NCBI RefSeq assembly: GCF_008195825.1
Contig: NZ_CP043329.1
Location: forward strand, 2,852,001 to 2,916,000
From: Pedobacter aquae
Lineage (GTDB): Bacteria; Bacteroidota; Bacteroidia; Sphingobacteriales; Sphingobacteriaceae
Reading direction: 5' to 3'
DNA length: 64,000 bases
Shown: piece by piece, positions 8,909-62,691 of the stretch
Numbering within the stretch: position 1 is the stretch's first letter
Layout of the letters: every line of letters begins with the position of its first letter
Made by a program: the position numbers and the translations under genes
The notes under the pieces: model-generated
Told to the model about the DNA's origin: nothing
Database searches by the model: none
Seen by the model: the letters and a program-made list of their open reading frames with translations, nothing else

Positions 8909-9976
8909 TTAAAATAAGCTTATTTGCCTGTTATGGCTATTTTTAAAAAGATCAAGTCTTTGGGGTTTAAGCGTATTTTGGGGCATATATTTTTTAATTG
9001 CGATATTAAAAAGTCTATGAATTACTTCTGCTTCTAACCCATCTCCTGATATCCTTTTACCCCATCTAGAATCATTTAAACTTCCGCCATGGCAAGATTT
9101 TATTTGGTTTAAAACTTTTTCTGCTTTATCAGGAAAAGCTTTGAGTACCCAGTCTGTGAAAATTTCTCCTATTGCACCATTTAATCTTACAATAGTAAAA
9201 GAGGCCGCAGTTACACCATGTTCTGAAGACGCCTTAATTATATCCACAATCTCATGGCTGTTAAGTCCTGGTATAATAGGTGCAACCATTGCCCTTACTG
9301 GAATACCCTCTTTAACAAGTTTTTCCATAACTTTTAGCCTTCCCTTACCGGTAACAGTTCTTGGCTCTAACTTTAGGCGTATATCTTCATCTAAAGAAGT
9401 AATGGAAATATTTACATGCAGTAAATCATGCTTATTTAATTCTTTTAAAAGATCTAAATCCCTAAGGATAAGATTATTTTTAGTGATGATACTAACCGGA
9501 TGCTTGTATTTTAGTAATACTTCTAAAAGCGACCGTGTTATTTTAAATTTTCTTTCTGCAGGCTGGTAGCAATCTGTATTTCCGGATAGTAAAATAACTT
9601 TAGGTTGGTAGTTTGGCTTATTTAATTGCTGTTCTAATAGCTTGGCAGCATCAGGCTTTATGATGATTTTACTCTCAAAATCTAAACCTGCATCAAAACC
9701 CCAATACTCATGCGAGTTTCTTGCATAGCAATAAATACAACCATGCTCGCAACCATGATATGGATTAACTGATGCTACAAAAGATAAATCTGGACTGTTG
9801 CTTTCGCTGATGATTTTTTTTGGGTATTCTTTGATGAATTCTGTCTTTATTTCATCAATAAAAGGTTCATCTAAACCTTCAATATGTTCTAAACTATATT
9901 TTAAATTTTGGAATTTATTATTGATATTTCCCTGCGCTCCACGACCTTTTAGGTAAGATTCTTCATTATTCAACAT
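8909..9976 (-). CDS. PA0069/Rv2578c-type radical SAM protein
   Basis: A 355-residue protein with the radical SAM cluster motif C76-x3-C80-x2-C83 (GCEHGCIYCYAR) directly after VASVNPYHG, the arrangement of the spore photoproduct lyase-like PA0069 family. Further family features are KVILLSGNTDCYQPAE, the SAM-binding glycine region and PIIPGLN. The C-terminal 80 residues lack extra Cys clusters. The family's substrate is unproven; members are often near DNA repair genes, but none are adjacent here. The start ATG lies three bases after a 31-bp AT-rich inverted repeat (9980-10010), so the gene may be controlled there. Confidence 0.88.
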   Translation of the reverse strand: MLNNEESYLKGRGAQGNINNKFQNLKYSLEHIEGLDEPFIDEIKTEFIKEYPKKIISESNSPDLSFVASVNPYHGCEHGCIYCYARNSHEYWGFDAGLDFESKIIIKPDAAKLLEQQLNKPNYQPKVILLSGNTDCYQPAERKFKITRSLLEVLLKYKHPVSIITKNNLILRDLDLLKELNKHDLLHVNISITSLDEDIRLKLEPRTVTGKGRLKVMEKLVKEGIPVRAMVAPIIPGLNSHEIVDIIKASSEHGVTAASFTIVRLNGAIGEIFTDWVLKAFPDKAEKVLNQIKSCHGGSLNDSRWGKRISGDGLEAEVIHRLFNIAIKKYMPQNTLKPQRLDLFKNSHNRQISLF

Positions 9977-9979
9977 AAC

Positions 9980-10010
9980 CTAAAAATACTAAAAATTTTA
10001 GTATTTTTAG
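9980..10010. promoter_or_regulatory. 15-bp perfect inverted repeat at the start codon of the radical SAM gene
   Basis: CTAAAAATACTAAAA (9980-9994), one central base, then its exact reverse complement (9996-10010). It lies between the LUD gene stop (10023) and the radical SAM start (9976), both on the minus strand. It could be an operator or an AU-rich mRNA hairpin hiding the start codon. It is a weak candidate as a terminator because no T run follows. Confidence 0.5.
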
Positions 10011-10022
10011 ATGGAAAATAAA

Positions 10023-10667
10023 TTATTGATAAGAATCATCTAACAAGAAAATAAAAAGTTCTTTAGGGCCATGAGCGCCTATAACCAATGTTTTTTCTAT
10101 ATCAGCAGTACGACTTGCACCGGTAATAGTACTAATCATTGTTGGTAAGTTATTGCCGTATTTATCTTTTAATAATTTAAATCCGTCTTTTAAATCCATT
10201 ACCAATTGTGAGGTATAAGCTATTACTACATGAAAATGCGGGTAAATACTTAATCTCCTACCAGCAGCACCTGCATTGCTTACTAATATAGAACCATTTC
10301 TGGCTATAAGTGCTTCGCATAAAGTAAAACCTACTTCTGCTAGTTCAAAATCTTTATCGCTTTCGTAAAATGGATACTCGTACTTTCTTAATAAATCTTG
10401 TAAAGGTTTTTCCCAGCAGTATATTTTACGCCACTTTTTCTCATCAGCTAAAAGCAAAATATTTTCTATGAGTTGTATTTCATCCTCACAAAAAACAAAC
10501 TGACCGCTTACGTTTATAAATTGTTCGGCAAATACCACTTCTGGTACTTCATCTACCGGCGGATATAAAGGGAGATCTTCCAGGTTAGGATATGGATTAT
10601 CTCTTTTCTCTAATAAAGCTTTTCTTATCTTTTTTAGTAATTTCTCTTTCGAGGTACTTTCCTTCAT
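10023..10667 (-). CDS. LUD domain (LutC/YkgG-like) protein
   Basis: A 214-residue protein matching the LUD fold of LutC: an N-terminal helical segment (SKEKLLKKIRKALLEK), then ELAEVGFTLCEALIARNGSIL and the conserved STITGASRTADIEKTLVIGAHGPKEL. LutC is one subunit of L-lactate dehydrogenase LutABC, but no lutA or lutB lies nearby. In Bacteroidota a lone LUD gene downstream of ftsH is a common arrangement, so the substrate is open. A terminator separates it from ftsH, and a TAAATTTG -7 box on the minus strand (10686-10693) gives it its own promoter. Confidence 0.85.
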   Translation of the reverse strand: MKESTSKEKLLKKIRKALLEKRDNPYPNLEDLPLYPPVDEVPEVVFAEQFINVSGQFVFCEDEIQLIENILLLADEKKWRKIYCWEKPLQDLLRKYEYPFYESDKDFELAEVGFTLCEALIARNGSILVSNAGAAGRRLSIYPHFHVVIAYTSQLVMDLKDGFKLLKDKYGNNLPTMISTITGASRTADIEKTLVIGAHGPKELFIFLLDDSYQ

Positions 10668-10685
10668 TTCCTATGATATAAGCTG

Positions 10686-10693
10686 CAAATTTA
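10686..10693 (-). promoter_or_regulatory. Bacteroidota -7 promoter element for the LUD gene
   Basis: Reads TAAATTTG on the minus strand, an exact TAnnTTTG match, 18 bases ahead of the start codon. It lies after the ftsH terminator, as expected for an independent promoter. No clear -33 TTG was found. Confidence 0.55.
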
Positions 10694-10700
10694 GGATATA

Positions 10701-10727
10701 AAAAATCCCCTGAAAATAGGGGATTTA
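10701..10727 (-). terminator. Terminator after ftsH
   Basis: An 8-bp perfect stem (AAATCCCC with GGGGATTT), 8-base loop, and a run of T on the minus strand. It sits four bases after the ftsH stop. Confidence 0.8.
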
Positions 10728-10730
10728 AAT

Positions 10731-12815
10731 TTATATTTCAGATGATTCTGATTTAAGTGGTTCTGTACTATCGCCAACAGGTTCTGGATGTATATTTTCT
10801 GCAATTACGCCTTGCTCACCACCTTCTTTACCATTTACAAATTCATCGTAAGTGGTTCTGTGGTCAAATGGTCTTTTACCTAAAATCTCTTCTAAATCAC
10901 TTTGGAATAAGATTTCTTTTTCTAAAAGCTTTTGCGCCAATAGCTCTAAACCTTCTCTTTTCTCAGTAAGTAATTGCTTGGTTCTGTTGTAGATACCTTC
11001 TATCAATAACCTAACTTCAATATCAATAAGCTCAGCTGTTTTATCAGAATAAGGCTTGCTGAAATTATATTCATTATTAGGATCGTGGAAAGAAACATTA
11101 CCTACTTTAGGGTTCATACCATAAATGGTAACCATGGCGTAAGCAAGTTTTGTAATACGCTCCAAATCGTTTTGTGCACCTGTAGAGATTTTATTAAAGA
11201 TAATATCTTCTGCTACACGGCCACCCATAGTCATACATAAACCATCAGAAAGTTGCTCTGTAGTGTACAAGAACTGCTCTTTTGGCAAATATTGTGCATA
11301 ACCTAAAGCGGCTACTCCACGTGGAACAATAGAAACTTTAACCAATGGGTCTGCATGCTCTAAGAACCAACCCGCTATAGCATGACCAGCTTCGTGGTAA
11401 GCAACAATTTTCTTTTCTTCCGGAGATATGATTTTATTTCTCTTCTCTAAACCACCAATCACACGGTCAATAGCATCTTGGAAATCTTGCATATCAATAG
11501 CTTCTTTGTTTCTTCTAGCTGCAATTAAAGCGGCTTCGTTACAAACATTGGCTATTTCTGCACCAGCAAAACCTGGAGTTTGTGCTGATAATTTTTTAGG
11601 ATCTATCTCTTTAGCAAGTTTTAAAGGTTGTAAGTGTACTTTAAAAATCTGCTCTCTACCCACTAAATCTGGCTTATCAATAGAAATTTGTCTATCAAAA
11701 CGACCCGGACGTAATAAAGCGCTATCTAAAACATCTGGTCTGTTGGTTGCTGCCATGATGATGATACCAGAATCGGTACCGAAACCATCCATTTCAACCA
11801 ATAACTGGTTTAAGGTATTTTCACGCTCATCATTACCGCCAACCATACTATTTTTACCTCTGGCTCTACCAATAGCATCAATCTCATCAATAAAAATGAT
11901 ACAAGGCGCTTTCTCTTTAGCTTGTTTAAATAAATCTCTTACTCTTGATGCACCTACACCCACAAACATCTCTACAAAGTCTGAACCAGATAAAGAGAAG
12001 AAAGGTACTTGTGCTTCGCCTGCAACGGCTTTAGCCAATAAGGTTTTACCTGTACCTGGCGAGCCCACTAATAACGCCCCTTTAGGGATTTTACCACCTA
12101 AATTGGTGTATTTTTTAGGGTTTTTCAGGAAATCTACAATTTCCATAACCTCTTGTTTAGCTTCTTCTAAACCGGCAACATCGTTAAAAGTAACTGAAAC
12201 CTGAGATTCTTTATCAAAAAGCGTAGCTTTTGATTTACCAATGTTGAAGATTTGACCACCAGCACCACCTCCGGCACCGCCACCCATTCTTCTCATGATA
12301 AATATCCATAATAAGGCAAAAAGAATAATAGGGAATATCACACTCCAGAACCATCCAGAAATTGGATTACTTCTAGTTTCTGGAAGAACATTCACTCTTT
12401 GGCCTTCTGGAATACCTTCTTGCGAAGCTTGTAAACGTTTCTCTAAAGCTTCAAAAGAACCATCTTTAAAGTAATACTGCGGACTAGTACCAGTTACAGA
12501 GAAATTAGAATTATCTCTAACATCTTTAAACTTGTCTTTTTTTAAACTGTCTTTTTTAATGTAAACTTCGGCAATGTAAAGGTCTTCTTGTTTGTAACCT
12601 ACCAATTTATCCACATCACCGCTTCTTAGCATTTCTTGCTCGAATTTTTGGTAAGTGATTAACTTAGAATTGTTACCACTCATGAAAAACTGAACTGCTA
12701 AAATGGCTAGTATAATAATTCCGTAAATCCACATGATATTGAATTTTGGTGGTTTTGGAACTACACGTTTACCGGGAACTTTTTTTATTGATTTTTTATT
12801 TTGATCTTCTTTCAT
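10731..12815 (-). CDS. ftsH: ATP-dependent zinc metalloprotease FtsH
   Basis: 694 residues. Two membrane helices (about 27-45 and 156-173) flank a periplasmic FtsH_ext domain. Then come a Gly-rich linker, the AAA+ domain with Walker A GSPGTGKT (251-258), Walker B IIFIDE (307-312) and the second region of homology ATNRPDVLDSALLRPGRFDR, and the M41 protease domain with zinc motif HEAGH (474-478). It degrades misassembled membrane proteins and short-lived regulators at the inner membrane. It follows rsfS by 27 bases on the same strand, the usual Bacteroidota order, and ends at its own terminator. The Lys/Pro-rich N-terminal tail of about 25 residues is longer than in E. coli. Confidence 0.98.
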   Translation of the reverse strand: MKEDQNKKSIKKVPGKRVVPKPPKFNIMWIYGIIILAILAVQFFMSGNNSKLITYQKFEQEMLRSGDVDKLVGYKQEDLYIAEVYIKKDSLKKDKFKDVRDNSNFSVTGTSPQYYFKDGSFEALEKRLQASQEGIPEGQRVNVLPETRSNPISGWFWSVIFPIILFALLWIFIMRRMGGGAGGGAGGQIFNIGKSKATLFDKESQVSVTFNDVAGLEEAKQEVMEIVDFLKNPKKYTNLGGKIPKGALLVGSPGTGKTLLAKAVAGEAQVPFFSLSGSDFVEMFVGVGASRVRDLFKQAKEKAPCIIFIDEIDAIGRARGKNSMVGGNDERENTLNQLLVEMDGFGTDSGIIIMAATNRPDVLDSALLRPGRFDRQISIDKPDLVGREQIFKVHLQPLKLAKEIDPKKLSAQTPGFAGAEIANVCNEAALIAARRNKEAIDMQDFQDAIDRVIGGLEKRNKIISPEEKKIVAYHEAGHAIAGWFLEHADPLVKVSIVPRGVAALGYAQYLPKEQFLYTTEQLSDGLCMTMGGRVAEDIIFNKISTGAQNDLERITKLAYAMVTIYGMNPKVGNVSFHDPNNEYNFSKPYSDKTAELIDIEVRLLIEGIYNRTKQLLTEKREGLELLAQKLLEKEILFQSDLEEILGKRPFDHRTTYDEFVNGKEGGEQGVIAENIHPEPVGDSTEPLKSESSEI

Positions 12816-56881: not shown

Positions 56882-58663
56882 ATGGAAAAACATACTTACC
56901 AAACTGGTATTATAGGAAACTGTTCTTACATAGCGCATGTACATAAAAACACCAATATCACTTGGTTATGCTGGCCTAGGTTTGATAGTTCTTTTGTTTT
57001 TGGAAGTATGCTTGACACTAAAAAAGGTGGAGAATTCTCCATAGCTCCTTCATCAGCATATACCTCTAAGCAATATTATTTAGAGAATACCAACATTTTG
57101 TGTACAGAAATCACGACAGAAAGTGGCAGGTATAAGGTAACCGATTTTGCACCGCGTTTTCAACAGTTTGAAAGGTATTTTAAACCTTTAATGCTGATAA
57201 GAAAGGTTCAGCTTTTAGAAGGTAATCCTCATATTAAAATAAAATGCCAACCGGTTTATGATTATGGTAAAAGTGAGCTTGAAGTTATTAGAGGTTCAAA
57301 CCATATTGAATATACTGGTTGTGGCGAAAAGATAAGATTATCTACCAATGCACCGCTTTCCTATATTTTAGAAGACCAATATTTTATCCTTAAAGATACT
57401 TTATACCTTTTTTTAACTTTTGGAGAACCTTTAGAAGGCCCTATACAAACCACGGCAGATAGGTTTTTAAACCAAACTACAAGTTATTGGAGAACATGGA
57501 TAAAACGTTCTTCTATTGGCGATTTTTATCAGGAGCAGGTGATAAGATCGGCCTTAGCCTTAAAAATACACCAGTATGAAGATACCGGAGCTATTATTGC
57601 TGCCAGCACTACAAGCTTACCAGAATTCCCAGGAAGTGGCCGAAATTGGGATTACAGATTTTGCTGGCTCAGAGATACTTATTATGTGATAAATGCCTTA
57701 CACCATATTGGCCATTTTGAGGAAACAGAGAAATACTTTGATTATATAACAGATATTTCTTTTGAAGAAGGTTTACGCTATCAGCCGCTTTACAGTATAT
57801 CCCGACAAAAAAATTTAGTTGAGAAAATTGCAGACCATTTAGAAGGCTATTTAGGAAATGGCCCGGTAAGAATTGGCAACCAAGCTTATGAGCATATACA
57901 GAATGATATTTATGGCCAAGCACTTATTTCTTTATTGCCTTTATATACCGATCATCGCTTTGTTTTTTCAGAAAGAAAAGATTCTGCTTCTTTAGTTGAG
58001 GTAGCTTTAAGAAGGATAGAGCATACCATAGATGAAGTTGACGCCGGCATTTGGGAGTTTAGAAATAGTGCTTATTTACATTGCTATAGTAACCTTTTCC
58101 AGTGGGCTGGTTGTAGCGCAGCCGCAAAAATTGCCAGAACCATCAATGATGAAGCCTTAGAAGAAAAAGCAGTTTCTTTGATGAAAAGAGCCGCAAAACA
58201 TATTGAAGATTGTTATGACCCCGTTCGTAAAGTTTATACACATGCCGTTGGTAGTCCGCATTTAGATGCAAGCACCTTACAGCTGATTATGATGAACTAT
58301 CTAGACCCACAATCTGAAAGAGCAAAAAACCATTTAATAGCTTTAGAAAACGAGTTAAAAACGCCAAATGGCTTATTTTATCGCTATTTACATGCCGATG
58401 ATTTTGGAAAACCAGAAACAACTTTCTTGATATGTGCTTTTTGGTATGTAGAAGCGCTAGCTTGTGTTGGTAGGGTTGATGATGCCATAAGAGAGTTTGA
58501 AAAACTAATGAAATATGCTAACCACTTGATGCTCTTTAGCGAGGATGTTGATGAAGAAACGGGTAGCCAATGGGGTAATTTCCCACAAGCTTACAGTCAT
58601 GTTGGTTTAATGAATGCTGCTTATAGGATTTCTAATAAATTGAATAGGCCTTTGTATTTGTGA
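56882..58663 (+). CDS. Glycoside hydrolase family 15 protein (glucoamylase or trehalase type)
   Basis: 593 residues, no signal peptide, so cytoplasmic. The N-terminal beta-sandwich domain (GNCSYIAHVHKNTNITWLCWPRFDSSFVFGSML) is followed by an (alpha/alpha)6 barrel with GSGRNWDYRFCWLRDTYYVI, the GH15 substrate-binding motif, and SQWGNFPQAYSHVGLMNAAYRI near the end. Family members cut alpha-glucosidic bonds from the non-reducing end, and some are trehalases. Because a trehalose synthase/phosphatase is encoded on the other side of the repeat region, a role in trehalose turnover is plausible, not proven. Confidence 0.88.
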   Translation: MEKHTYQTGIIGNCSYIAHVHKNTNITWLCWPRFDSSFVFGSMLDTKKGGEFSIAPSSAYTSKQYYLENTNILCTEITTESGRYKVTDFAPRFQQFERYFKPLMLIRKVQLLEGNPHIKIKCQPVYDYGKSELEVIRGSNHIEYTGCGEKIRLSTNAPLSYILEDQYFILKDTLYLFLTFGEPLEGPIQTTADRFLNQTTSYWRTWIKRSSIGDFYQEQVIRSALALKIHQYEDTGAIIAASTTSLPEFPGSGRNWDYRFCWLRDTYYVINALHHIGHFEETEKYFDYITDISFEEGLRYQPLYSISRQKNLVEKIADHLEGYLGNGPVRIGNQAYEHIQNDIYGQALISLLPLYTDHRFVFSERKDSASLVEVALRRIEHTIDEVDAGIWEFRNSAYLHCYSNLFQWAGCSAAAKIARTINDEALEEKAVSLMKRAAKHIEDCYDPVRKVYTHAVGSPHLDASTLQLIMMNYLDPQSERAKNHLIALENELKTPNGLFYRYLHADDFGKPETTFLICAFWYVEALACVGRVDDAIREFEKLMKYANHLMLFSEDVDEETGSQWGNFPQAYSHVGLMNAAYRISNKLNRPLYL

Positions 58664-58685
58664 TTTTAAGGAATAATGTTACATA

Positions 58686-58702
58686 AAGGCTGATGAATAT
58701 TT
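58686..58702 (+). repeat. Truncated module of the repeat family
   Basis: AAGGCTGATGAATATTT, the start of the most conserved module (seen again at 59270 and 60041), followed by unrelated sequence. Confidence 0.7.
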
Positions 58703-59087
58703 ATATTTCAGGGTCTTTAGGGCTACTTTATACTTCAAGCAAGGAACAACCATTCATAAAAAACAGTCTAAACCGAAGCACATGAGCAACAATTAGTTTA
58801 TTCGTTAATAGTTGATTAGGTTGTTAGTCCGAAATATCCAATATTTAGGTGTCTTTTTACTTTGTACTTTTGACTTTATACTTAAATAAAGCCTACAGCG
58901 AATATGGTTTTGCGTTCGAGTTTTCACTAACTTTTATAAAGCATTAACAAGCAAAAATAAGCGCTCCCTGTTTTTGAGTGTGGGTAAGGGATGTGCGGCA
59001 AAGGCTCCTGTGGGATTGTTCAGGACTTTATTCATTATTTTTATTCATTTTAAAAGGTATTCATGAATTCGCTAAAGCTTCATTTTG

Positions 59088-59113
59088 GTTCCTTTTGGTC
59101 CCTCAAAAGGAAC
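59088..59113. repeat. Conserved hairpin in copy 1
   Basis: GTTCCTTTTG, six-base loop GTCCCT, CAAAAGGAAC: a perfect 10-bp stem. The same hairpin occurs in copy 2 at 59818-59843 without change. Confidence 0.8.
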
Positions 59114-59269
59114 GAGCCTCGCCGGCGATAGAGGCGGATAAATATTATCATTAAAGATTACTAAGCTAAGTGAAGCTTTTTGAAATGACATTTTCGCACA
59201 AGGCTTTCCGGCCTCATAGGCGGCCAACCCTATTTACTTTTTTCTTGATAAAAAAGTAAACAAAAAATC

Positions 59270-59525
59270 AAGGCTGATGAATATTTGTCGTTTCGTCTAA
59301 ATAAATCTTTAGCCACAATCCTGAGTGGTGTGATTGTTTTTGCTTAATGAAAGTATTTACATCACCCGTCGGATTGTTTTCCGATAGTTCTCTATGAAAG
59401 TTTATGCAAAAGATTTATTTGCCTACACTTCCAAATCTTCATAGGCCGTCCTCGTTCTTCGGTAAATTTTGTTTAATTATTAAAGGTAGTCCCAAAATGT
59501 CTGCTCTAGGGGCTTTTTAATTTTA
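59270..59525 (+). ncRNA. Candidate structured RNA, copy 1
   Basis: The most conserved block of the repeat, about 95% identical to 60041-60300. Differences cluster in three short patches. It contains possible stems ACAATC/GATTGT (near 59316), TCGGA/TCCGA (near 59380) and CTATGAA/TTCATAG (about 59402-59453), and ends in AGTCCC (59488-59493) pairing with GGGGCT (59509-59514) before a T-rich tail, as in a terminator. Whether it is transcribed is unknown. Confidence 0.35.
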
Positions 59526-59817
59526 ACTTTTGATTTTTAACTTTTTAAATCTTCCTACTTCCAGAAAGGAACAACCATTCATAAAAAACAAGCTATCCCG
59601 AAGCACATGAGCAATCCCCCAGAGCCGCAAAGGCAAAAAAACAGAAGCAGAAATTAAAAAATCTTGCACCACCAAGCCTATAGCGAATGCGGTTTTGCGT
59701 TAGAGGTTATGTGAACTTTCATAAATCACTTCCTAGCAAAAATAAGCGCTCCTTGTTTTTGAGTGAGGGTAAGGTATGTGCGGCAAAGGCTCCAGCGGGG
59801 ATTGTTCAGGACTTTTG

Positions 59818-59843
59818 GTTCCTTTTGGTCCCTCAAAAGGAAC
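59818..59843. repeat. Conserved hairpin in copy 2
   Basis: Identical to the copy 1 hairpin at 59088-59113: a 10-bp stem with loop GTCCCT. Confidence 0.8.
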
Positions 59844-60040
59844 GAGCCCCGCCGGCGATAGAGGCGGATGTTTATTGTTTTATAGAGATTGTGAATTAAT
59901 TGGCTATTTCGCTCAGGGCTTTCCGGCCTCATAGGCGGCCAACCCTAGGCACTTTTTTCTTGAAAAAAAAAAGTTCCCAAAAAACGAGGAATGAGTTCAT
60001 GAATGCTTAAGAAAAACCATAACCAAAAAATGAATAATTC

Positions 60041-60300
60041 AAGGCTGATGAATATTTGTCGTTTCGTCTAAATAAATCTTTAGCCACAATCCTGAGTGGT
60101 GTGATTGTTTTTGCATATTGAAAGCTACTACAACACCCGTCGGATTGTTTTCCGATAGTTCTCTATGAAAGTTTATGCAAAAGATTTATTTGCCTACACT
60201 TCCAAATCTTCATAGGCCACACTCGTTCTTCGGTAAATTTTGTTTAATTATTAAAGGTAGTCCCAAAATGTCTGCTCTTTAGGGGCTTTTTAATTTTAAC
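60041..60300 (+). ncRNA. Candidate structured RNA, copy 2
   Basis: The second copy of the block at 59270-59525. The stems TCGGA/TCCGA and CTATGAA/TTCATAG and the final AGTCCC (60259-60264) with GGGGCT (60282-60287) are kept. The terminal loop is two bases longer, which does not affect the stem. Transcription is not shown. Confidence 0.35.
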
Positions 60301-60345
60301 TTTTGATTTTTAACTTATATAATACACACTCATTATTTTAAGTTT

Positions 60346-60371
60346 GGGATGTGCGTCAAAGGCTACTGCGG
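60346..60371 (+). repeat. Partial repeat module next to the trehalose gene
   Basis: GGGATGTGCG then TCAAAGGCTACTGCGG matches the GGGATGTGCGGCAAAGGCTC block of the full copies with a few changes. It shows a third, eroded copy at the right edge. Confidence 0.65.
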
Positions 60372-60388
60372 CAAGCAGTTACTACACT

Positions 60389-62560
60389 CTACACCACAAA
60401 CTTTTTAAGAAAACTGCGTACATCTTCTACGCTATTGATGTAATAATTTGCTGCAGATACGCTGCTTCCTACTTTTATGGTGATGGCTCTTTGAGGGAGT
60501 TGCTGAAAGGTGTCTTCATCGGTATGGTCATCACCTAAAGCCATCATAAAATCAAAATCTTTATCTAGGATATAAGAAAAAGCGGCTTTTCCTTTATTGA
60601 TATCACTACTTTTAATTTCTAAAACCTTGTTTCCGGCCAATACTTGTAAACCCATTTCGCGGGTAAGGTAACGTAAATTACTTTCTAGTTCATTAGCTCT
60701 TAACTCGCCCAAGCCTTTTTCTACTTTTCTAAAATGCCAGGCTAAAGAAAAACGTTTTTCTTCTATAAAAGAACCCGGTGTACGGTCTGAGTAGGCTTCT
60801 AACATAGACCTCACTTTAGTTTTCCAATTGTCAGATAAGCCGGGTATAGTTGCCCAATATTGGCCGTTTATTTTTTGCCAGGCGCCATGCTCAGCAATTA
60901 AATCAATATCTAAATGGCCAAACCATTGCTCTAGAGTTTCGTATTTTCTACCGCTAATAATGACCAGTTGATTACGAGCATCGGCATTTAAATCTTTTAA
61001 AAGTTCATACAATTCCTCATCAGGGTAAGCTTTATCAATCTCGGCTTTAAAGCCAACCAAAGTACCATCATAATCTAGAAAGAAAACCCTTTTTTGTGCT
61101 TCTTGCATTTGCTTTACAAAGGTTTCTTGTAGGTTAGCATTTACACTTTTTGCTTTTCTAATACCCTCTGCTACTTTAATATCTGCTAATTGATCCATAA
61201 ATATCTTTACCCAATGGTGTATATCAAACTTGTTTACTAAATCTTTTAAAGCCAACATTCTAGATTTTTGCTCTTCTTCTGGCATTTCTATAGCTTGGAT
61301 GATGGCTCGGTACATCTCGCCCAAATTATTAGGGTTAACAATAAGCGCATCGGCAAGTTCTTTAGAGGCCCCTGCCATTTCACTTAAAATAAGAACGCCC
61401 TTATCTTTTCTGCTTGCAATGTATTCTTTGCTTACTAAGTTCATCCCATCTCGCATCGGGGTAACCAAACAAATATCTGCCCGGCTGTATAAAGCCACTA
61501 AGGTTTCTACCGGAAAAGAGCGATAGAAATAATGGATAGGATGCCAAGATGATGTTCTGAAACGAGCATTGATGTTACCAACCATTTTATCAATATCATC
61601 TCTAAGCTCTTTATACTGTGCTATACTATCTCTTGATGGCACTACAATCATGTGTAAAGAGATTTTCTCTATATACTCTGGGTTATCTGTTAAAACTTTC
61701 TCAAAAGCCATGAGGCGTTGTAAAATGCCTTTGCTATAATCTAGCCTATCTACAGAAAGTATCACTTTAGAGTCTTTTAAAATCTCGTTATAATTGGCTA
61801 TTTCTTCTTGTACTTTGCTGTCTTTGCTTAGGCTTTCAAATTTTTCAGCATCAATACCCATCGGGAAGGCATCAATTAAAACATTTCTATCTGCCACCTG
61901 AATGATGTTTGCTGTTGCATGAACAGGAATAGAACGTGTTGCCGAACTGGTAAAATGCCTCACATCATCGTAAGTATGAAAACCAATTAAATCAGCGCCA
62001 AGCATCCCATTTAATAATTCGGCCCGCCAAGGTATCAACCTAAAAAGCTCAAAAGATGGAAAAGGGATATGTTGAAAAAAGCCTATGGAAACATCTTTTA
62101 ACTCGTCTCTTATTAATTTTGGGAGCAATAAAAGTTGGTAATCATGTATCCAGATGGTATCGCCGGGCTGTGCTATAGCCAAAACTTCTTGTTTAAATTT
62201 CTGATTTACCGCTTGATAATAATCCCAATATTTTTGCTCAAACTGGGCGTAGGTACTCATGTAATGGAAAATGGGCCAAAGTATTTCGTTAGAAAAGCCT
62301 TCGTAATAGTTCAAAATTTCTTCCTCGCTTAAAAAAACTGGTAATAGGTTTTCCTTTTGGAGAAGCGCTATTACTTGGGCTTTCTCCTCATCATCATTAA
62401 TTTCTGTACCGCACCAGCCTATCCAAATATTATCGTCTTGTTTATAGACCGAGCCTAAACCAGTTGCCAAACCTCCTTCGCTCACTTTAAGGGTAAAACT
62501 GCTTTCCTCTTTAGAAATTTTTACGGGTAATCTGTTAGATACGATAATGGTTCTGCTCAT
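60389..62560 (-). CDS. Bifunctional trehalose-6-phosphate synthase/phosphatase
   Basis: About 723 residues from ATG 62560 (MSRTIIVSNRLPVKIS). The N-terminal GT20 synthase domain (to about residue 480) shows GWCGTEI, WIHDYQLLLLPKLIRD, SVDRLDYSKGILQRL and PMRDGMNLVSKEYIASR. The C-terminal HAD phosphatase domain shows FFLDYDGTLVGF (nucleophile Asp), VIISGRK and MALGDDHTDEDTF. It makes trehalose from UDP-glucose and glucose-6-phosphate in two steps in the cytoplasm. TPS-TPP fusions are common in Bacteroidota. It faces an MscS gene in divergent orientation and a GH15 gene across the repeat region, a setting for osmotic stress. Confidence 0.96.
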   Translation of the reverse strand: MSRTIIVSNRLPVKISKEESSFTLKVSEGGLATGLGSVYKQDDNIWIGWCGTEINDDEEKAQVIALLQKENLLPVFLSEEEILNYYEGFSNEILWPIFHYMSTYAQFEQKYWDYYQAVNQKFKQEVLAIAQPGDTIWIHDYQLLLLPKLIRDELKDVSIGFFQHIPFPSFELFRLIPWRAELLNGMLGADLIGFHTYDDVRHFTSSATRSIPVHATANIIQVADRNVLIDAFPMGIDAEKFESLSKDSKVQEEIANYNEILKDSKVILSVDRLDYSKGILQRLMAFEKVLTDNPEYIEKISLHMIVVPSRDSIAQYKELRDDIDKMVGNINARFRTSSWHPIHYFYRSFPVETLVALYSRADICLVTPMRDGMNLVSKEYIASRKDKGVLILSEMAGASKELADALIVNPNNLGEMYRAIIQAIEMPEEEQKSRMLALKDLVNKFDIHHWVKIFMDQLADIKVAEGIRKAKSVNANLQETFVKQMQEAQKRVFFLDYDGTLVGFKAEIDKAYPDEELYELLKDLNADARNQLVIISGRKYETLEQWFGHLDIDLIAEHGAWQKINGQYWATIPGLSDNWKTKVRSMLEAYSDRTPGSFIEEKRFSLAWHFRKVEKGLGELRANELESNLRYLTREMGLQVLAGNKVLEIKSSDINKGKAAFSYILDKDFDFMMALGDDHTDEDTFQQLPQRAITIKVGSSVSAANYYINSVEDVRSFLKKFVV

Positions 62561-62691
62561 AATATGAAAGGGATAAACTTTGAAAATCACTTTTAGAAAA
62601 CAAAAACCATGCAAATGAAAATCACAACTGCAAATCCTCTAATTAAAATTTAGCATGACTATTGCCTATTTACCTCAAAAAACACGCATTT

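Follow-up and report, generated by a model that had tools for sequence, protein, structure and literature searches.

A structured modular non-coding repeat in intergenic regions of Pedobacter aquae and other Sphingobacteriaceae

The tandem array and its modules

In the window considered here, that is, the whole 64,000-nt stretch of the Pedobacter aquae genome that was analysed, a GH15/trehalase-like gene (56882-58663, + strand) and a trehalose-6-phosphate synthase/phosphatase gene (60389-62614, - strand) converge on an intergenic gap of about 1725 nt. Two head-to-tail units (58727-60303; unit length 771-825 nt) of a non-coding mosaic repeat take up nearly all of it, with a clipped copy of module e on the left and a clipped copy of module b on the right. 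A previous sequence-only reading had placed two head-to-tail copies of about 0.8 kb between these convergent genes, with fragments of the same family at both edges; the copies were confirmed by repeat search and profile parsing, and the edge fragments are real (58683-58702 for module e, 60327-60371 for module b). The blocks that the repeat search found in both copies measure 260 nt (93%), 126 nt (83%), 73 nt (86%), 64 nt (94%) and 64 nt (88%), and follow one another in identical order with a start-to-start spacing of 715 to 825 nt. The near-identical blocks separated by unrelated or absent spacers, also described in that reading, are seen at the a/b, b/c and d/e intervals: the a-to-b interval holds different DNA in the two copies, only copy 1 has a spacer of about 57 nt separating b from c, and only copy 2 has one of about 48 nt separating d from e.

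The module names a, b, c, d, e and t were assigned in this analysis, and the window coordinates given below come from profile parsing, except for the left edge, which comes from the repeat search. The array edges and the arrangement in relatives support d-e-(t)-(a)-b-c as the probable phase of the unit.

58683-58702, + strand: clipped 5' end of module e (its first 20 nt), left array edge
58727-58789, + strand: module a, copy 1, clade-specific
58832-58870: match to module t
58889-59022, + strand: module b, copy 1, with relatives in distant congeners and another genus
59084-59146, + strand: module c, copy 1, with hairpin GTTCCTTTTG/CAAAAGGAAC (59088-59113) and a second G+C-rich palindrome, CGCCGGCGATAGAGGCGG
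59187-59263, + strand: module d, copy 1, mirror form of c, with the CCGGCCTCATAGGCGG palindrome and the hairpin ACTTTTTT-CTTGAT-AAAAAAGT
59265-59496, + strand: module e, copy 1, whose core (59265-59452) is a predicted nested hairpin
59272-59287 with 59431-59447: predicted helix P0 of module e, copy 1
59299-59310 with 59409-59420: predicted helix P1 of module e, copy 1
59315-59321 with 59371-59377: predicted helix P2 of module e, copy 1
59495-59530, + strand: module t, T-rich tail, copy 1
59552-59619, + strand: module a, copy 2
59672-59808, + strand: module b, copy 2
59814-59876, + strand: module c, copy 2, hairpin at 59818-59843
59902-59980, + strand: module d, copy 2
60036-60267, + strand: module e, copy 2
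60266-60303, + strand: module t, copy 2
60327-60371, + strand: module b fragment, right array edge, aligning with part of a 132-nt remnant at the orthologous P. puniceum (G013) site

Copies and architecture in the genome

The pattern seen in the window is far beyond chance, module e alone being present in about 30 full or near-full copies, grouped in 18 clusters, in the 3.85-Mb genome. Many of these clusters are tandem, with a spacing of 480-860 nt, and the distribution of the other modules across the genome parallels that of e. Every parsed cluster shows the single module order d-e-a-b-c, with insertions and deletions falling mainly at the set junctions a/b, b/c and d/e. Most arrays open with d and close with e/t or c, clipped and partial copies being common in the family. 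Copies within an array are about 90% alike, against about 85% otherwise.

Regarding their surroundings, 12 of the 19 arrays lie between convergent genes, six between co-directional genes and one between divergent genes. The convergent share exceeds that of the gaps in the window (12/19 versus 12/53; P=1.8e-4), a preference for which tolerance of insertions at gene 3' ends is as good an explanation as a function would be. The suspicion that the window held members of a dispersed modular non-coding family, located mostly at convergent intergenic sites, was thus borne out. The reading had also mentioned similar short open frames in Bacteroidota annotations; these do not point to a protein, since stop codons interrupt 38-45 of 45 copies per frame and the three codon phases are equally variable (0.108/0.115/0.098). 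A coding origin was consequently rejected, and the short frames gave no Pfam match.

A covarying fold in module e

Pair-change counts indicate that module e is one long nested hairpin of about 180 nt. The first covariation set comprised 37 copies of e from P. aquae, distant congeners and two other genera, in which helices P0 to P3 showed 91% standard pairs, with both sides changed in 18 of 38 pairs. Cells with double changes numbered 110, against 41 after shuffling and 13-29 with slid partners. Compensatory examples include AAATAAATC/GATTTATTT, CAATAAATC/GATTTATTG and GGATAAATC/GATTTATCC in P1, and ACAATCC/GGATTGT, GCAAACC/GGTTTGC and GCAAGC/GCTTGC in P2. A covariance model of e was built from the first-set copies, and in a further set of copies, drawn mainly from other genera, both sides had changed in 35 of 38 pairs, with 230 double-change cells (64 shuffled, 25-59 slid), in an alignment that was fitted to the model and leans towards structure. 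RNAalifold at default settings returned little or nothing on the very diverse MAFFT alignments, which is why the covariation claim rests on the pair-change counts.

Mispairs in e are rare (G-T 26 and A-C 47 of about 2000 cells) and the + strand has no G-T bias. With both mispairs rare, the + strand gives no indication that wobble pairs were selected for; the fold may exist at the DNA level or in an RNA read from the opposite strand. The loop-side motif TGCTTTATGAAAGTTTNTGCAA is present twice within the module. In P. cryophilus contigs (L131, L114), some copies only carry small palindromes such as GCCTGCCGGCAGGCAGG in the e loops, looking like nested insertions.

The mirrored hairpins c and d

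Modules c and d are one motif in opposite orientations, made up of a T-rich spacer, a stem with CTTTT/AAAAG, a loop and an adjoining G+C-rich palindrome. About 8 nt upstream lies a segment complementary to the loop, and the two still match when both change (CTTGAT/ATCAAG, GGAC/GTCC, AGGG/CCCT, AGAT/ATCT, AAAAGGC/GCCTTTT); the loop of module d copy 1 in the window is complementary to ATCAAG at 59267-59272. The mean longest loop complement was 3.38, against 2.45 (sd 0.19) with loops shuffled, and the observed mean was reached in 0 of 1000 shuffles (50 distinct loops). This sequence evidence for covariation appears good but not final, the loops being partly non-independent and the hairpin search simple. 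A pseudoknot was considered for c/d and rejected: the complementarity is supported, but zero nucleotides separate the loop strand from the 3' stem strand, so that both helices could hardly form at once. The pairing might be alternative or in trans.

A class-wide spread of the d hairpin was also considered. A DNA search with c and d, in which only two candidates were scored per genome, gave the hairpin alone in distant genomes. The exact d hairpin pattern, sought in 296 genomes of the phylum, gave 24 matches in P. aquae, against 0 for the reversed control, and 1-2 matches in four other genomes. The pattern being essentially confined to P. aquae, a phylum-wide d hairpin is not claimed.

Distribution among relatives

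The covariance model of e found full-length matches in 40 of 151 Sphingobacteriaceae genomes, belonging to 7 of 25 genera. Outside the family, a single genome matched among roughly 285 from other families of the class; in this class sample of 295 genomes, three Sphingobacteriaceae genomes also match. Some congeners showed no copy of e, and the highest counts reach 16 or more. The near clade alone has modules a and t. Relatives of b, c, d and e extend to distant congeners; there and in another genus these modules follow one another as d-e-b-c, and d and e stay adjacent in other genera too. In one other genus, e forms a tandem array whose units measure about 312 nt, so tandem arrays occur in at least two genera. 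Named relatives are Pedobacter glucosidilyticus (G009), P. puniceum (G013) and P. cryophilus (G008). No copy of the repeat was found in the phages, plasmids and viral contigs searched. The search of the genome and its relatives and the covariance test, both proposed along with the earlier description of the array, came out positive: the blocks are not confined to this locus, nor did they match the ends of a known transposon, a group II intron or an rRNA spacer. The literature on Pedobacter and relatives yielded no description of such a repeat family, and the genome paper of P. glucosidilyticus DD6b uses the word "repeat" only in connection with CRISPR.

Dynamics at orthologous sites

In the sister species P. 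glucosidilyticus and P. puniceum, orthologous sites hold two units, one, none, or another repeat family. Eight more distant congeners have only 0-38 nt in the gap orthologous to that of the window array; this gap is 132 nt long in P. puniceum and 173 nt in genome G011, with differing remnants, and contains one unit in P. glucosidilyticus and two in P. aquae. At a second site (L067), P. aquae has a gap of 1392 nt and three sister species one of 56-58 nt; the array stands in place of the sister species' hairpin terminator instead of interrupting it, and no target duplication was seen. Only d is present at a third site (L069) in P. puniceum, versus d-e-a-b-c-d in P. aquae, a one-unit difference that recombination between the flanking copies of d would account for. 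Neither a clean target duplication nor a clean empty-site junction could be identified, and sites other than L067 differ by whole units. Same-site copies across sister species are 86.1% alike, barely above the 84.4% at different sites, while the flanking DNA is mostly 85-98% identical. The idea that the blocks are selected or exchanged is supported.

Larger changes were also observed. The flanks of arrays L062 and L063 are swapped in P. glucosidilyticus (C12:67.4-67.8 kb and C1:290.9-292.9 kb), and arrays L072 and L073 are joined in P. glucosidilyticus (C22) and G011 (C19), both of which would fit chromosome rearrangement by recombination between arrays. Many G011 copies of the repeat lie at contig ends. 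At the P. puniceum site orthologous to L062 (L194), an unrelated family of tandem repeats occupies the convergent gap; certain gaps therefore seem to be repeat hot spots.

Search for a known family or a mobilising enzyme

As the sequence-only reading had stated, no gene, IS end or CRISPR layout accounts for the array. An Rfam search up to E=1 returned only an irrelevant SmY match, and a tRNA-linked element was rejected, a tRNA being near one array locus only. Modules b-e are absent from all 19 Y1 transposase (Y1_Tnp) loci of eight congeners, including P. aquae; with modules adjoining none of these loci, RAYT (REP-associated tyrosine transposase) or IS200 was rejected as the mobiliser.

The P. 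aquae genome encodes two RAYTs above the NCBIfam cut-off. One of them (L185, G000:C1:2292300-2296500, RAYT at about 1882-2454; NF047646, 190 aa, NHLH...YIHNNP) is flanked by its own REP, CTCGTTNCAAACGAG, and its G009 and G013 relatives keep the same RAYT/REP pairing. This RAYT is similar to TnpA_Y1 subclass 2.6, which is Bacteroidetes-rich and has atypical flanking structures (PMC6006769). The REP hairpin lies beside 4 of the 19 arrays and is absent from the d-e-a-b-c unit itself, different repeat families thus sharing intergenic niches. It is also found next to module c inside a second tandem non-coding family (L077, G000:C1:135000-151000, at 9700-12300; unit about 490-625 nt), which has only module c in common with the present one. 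A dispersed palindromic repeat around TTCGACTCCGCTCAGCCTGACA is located next to the second RAYT (L184:2536-2623) and at L064, L068, L072 and L081, and a similar motif occurs at L192.

Interpretation and alternatives

The reading that we favour, with a probability of about 0.6, is that of an undescribed non-autonomous, structure-dependent mosaic repeat, similar to MITEs and BIMEs (bacterial interspersed mosaic elements) and moved in trans by a putative enzyme. We infer the manner of movement as follows. A trans-acting enzyme, perhaps one acting on single-stranded DNA, would copy or move the element, recognising it by the fold of the e core and by the mirrored hairpins d and c at the ends. Once the element had arrived, tandem arrays, unit deletions and chromosome rearrangements would result from homologous recombination. 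Convergent gaps would be favoured because insertions are least harmful there, and individual copies are probably dispensable to the host. An inverted repeat at the DNA level is expected to give wobble mispairs that are rare and unbiased on the + strand, as seen in e.

Several results speak against this reading: no mobilising enzyme is linked to the modules at the 19 Y1 loci, no clean target duplication or empty site was seen, the phages, plasmids and viral contigs searched gave no copy, and one fold conserved over seven genera also fits a functional RNA. The main rival, which we consider unlikely, is that module e, with the preceding d hairpin, is a multi-copy functional structured non-coding RNA, the arrays being dosage-amplified RNA genes. 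Besides the strong covariation, the repeated TGCTTTATGAAAGTTTNTGCAA motif, the d-e adjacency kept in other genera and the full-length matches in 40/151 family genomes speak for it. However, a copy number going from none detected to 16 or more among congeners, the abundance of clipped copies, the free loss of copies from orthologous sites, a + strand without G-U preference and the lack of an Rfam relative all argue against such a role. A good deal less probable is that the arrays are bidirectional transcription terminators or boundary elements between convergent genes, as their convergent preference, the A/T-rich hairpins of c and d and the missing L067 terminator might suggest; at the window site, however, gaps of 0-38 nt suffice for congeners, 7/19 arrays are non-convergent, and termination needs no covarying fold of 180 nt.

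Mobilisation of the family by a P. aquae RAYT is very improbable. The genome does have two such proteins over the cut-off, and the REP flanking one of them, CTCGTTNCAAACGAG, adjoins 4/19 arrays and enters the separate 490-nt family sharing module c, but this REP is outside the d-e-a-b-c unit and modules b-e are absent from every RAYT neighbourhood examined. The least probable reading has no element as such, only an old tandem duplication that decays neutrally and undergoes gene conversion. Recombination between copies is evident and within-array copies are somewhat more alike (90% vs 85%), yet about 30 dispersed copies already contradict it, and the same order everywhere, the covariation and the presence in seven genera also speak against it.

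A bolder proposal, offered tentatively and with the odds against it, is that the repeat is a new kind of genetic element. Such a mobile unit of DNA (or RNA) would be selected for its structure throughout the family and would differ from REP/RAYT, MITE and retron systems; a putative mobilising machine would recognise its 180-nt core and mirrored loop-pairing hairpins, and the element would shape convergent intergenic regions and chromosome rearrangement in Sphingobacteriaceae. A fold is kept by compensatory change over seven genera while copies come and go at sites, so that the family allows a direct test of how non-coding repeats spread in bacteria and which structure selection keeps. The repeat would explain some of the short hypothetical frames, assembly breaks and rearrangements in Sphingobacteriaceae genomes, for which the e covariance model is a ready annotation tool.

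Comparison with known systems

The nested helices with compensatory changes recall the large structured RNAs of Rfam, from which the repeat differs in having no family match even at a permissive threshold, in its multi-copy mosaic behaviour and in its little wobble pairing. BOX elements of Streptococcus pneumoniae are modular, with a fixed block order and a variable block number, and the present repeat is alike in both respects; compared by description and not by sequence, BOX modules are much shorter and belong to another phylum.

As in MITEs, the unit is non-coding and has inverted-repeat ends (the c/d mirror hairpins), module e being itself a long imperfect inverted repeat. BrickBuilt of Porphyromonas gingivalis is a MITE (PMC4596501) with which the repeat shares a non-coding, intergenic and multi-copy nature, inverted-repeat ends, internal repetition and a Bacteroidota genome. 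A possible difference from BrickBuilt and other MITEs is that no target duplication was seen at L067 and no parent transposase was found in the Y1 class; in contrast to BrickBuilt, which occurs in one species, it is family-wide, with tandem whole-unit arrays and deep structural covariation.

The resemblance to BIMEs and REPINs lies in the intergenic multi-copy mosaic of small palindromic modules, placed at gene 3' ends, often in tandem and with hairpins in inverted pairs. BIMEs, however, are much shorter than the 600-800 nt of the Pedobacter unit, which contains a covarying core of 180 nt and has no linked cognate REP/RAYT pair, the RAYT of the genome being flanked by a different REP. Since its behaviour is that of a BIME or MITE but it lacks a cognate RAYT, one of the features that define REP systems, it is described here as a modular non-autonomous repeat of undescribed form.
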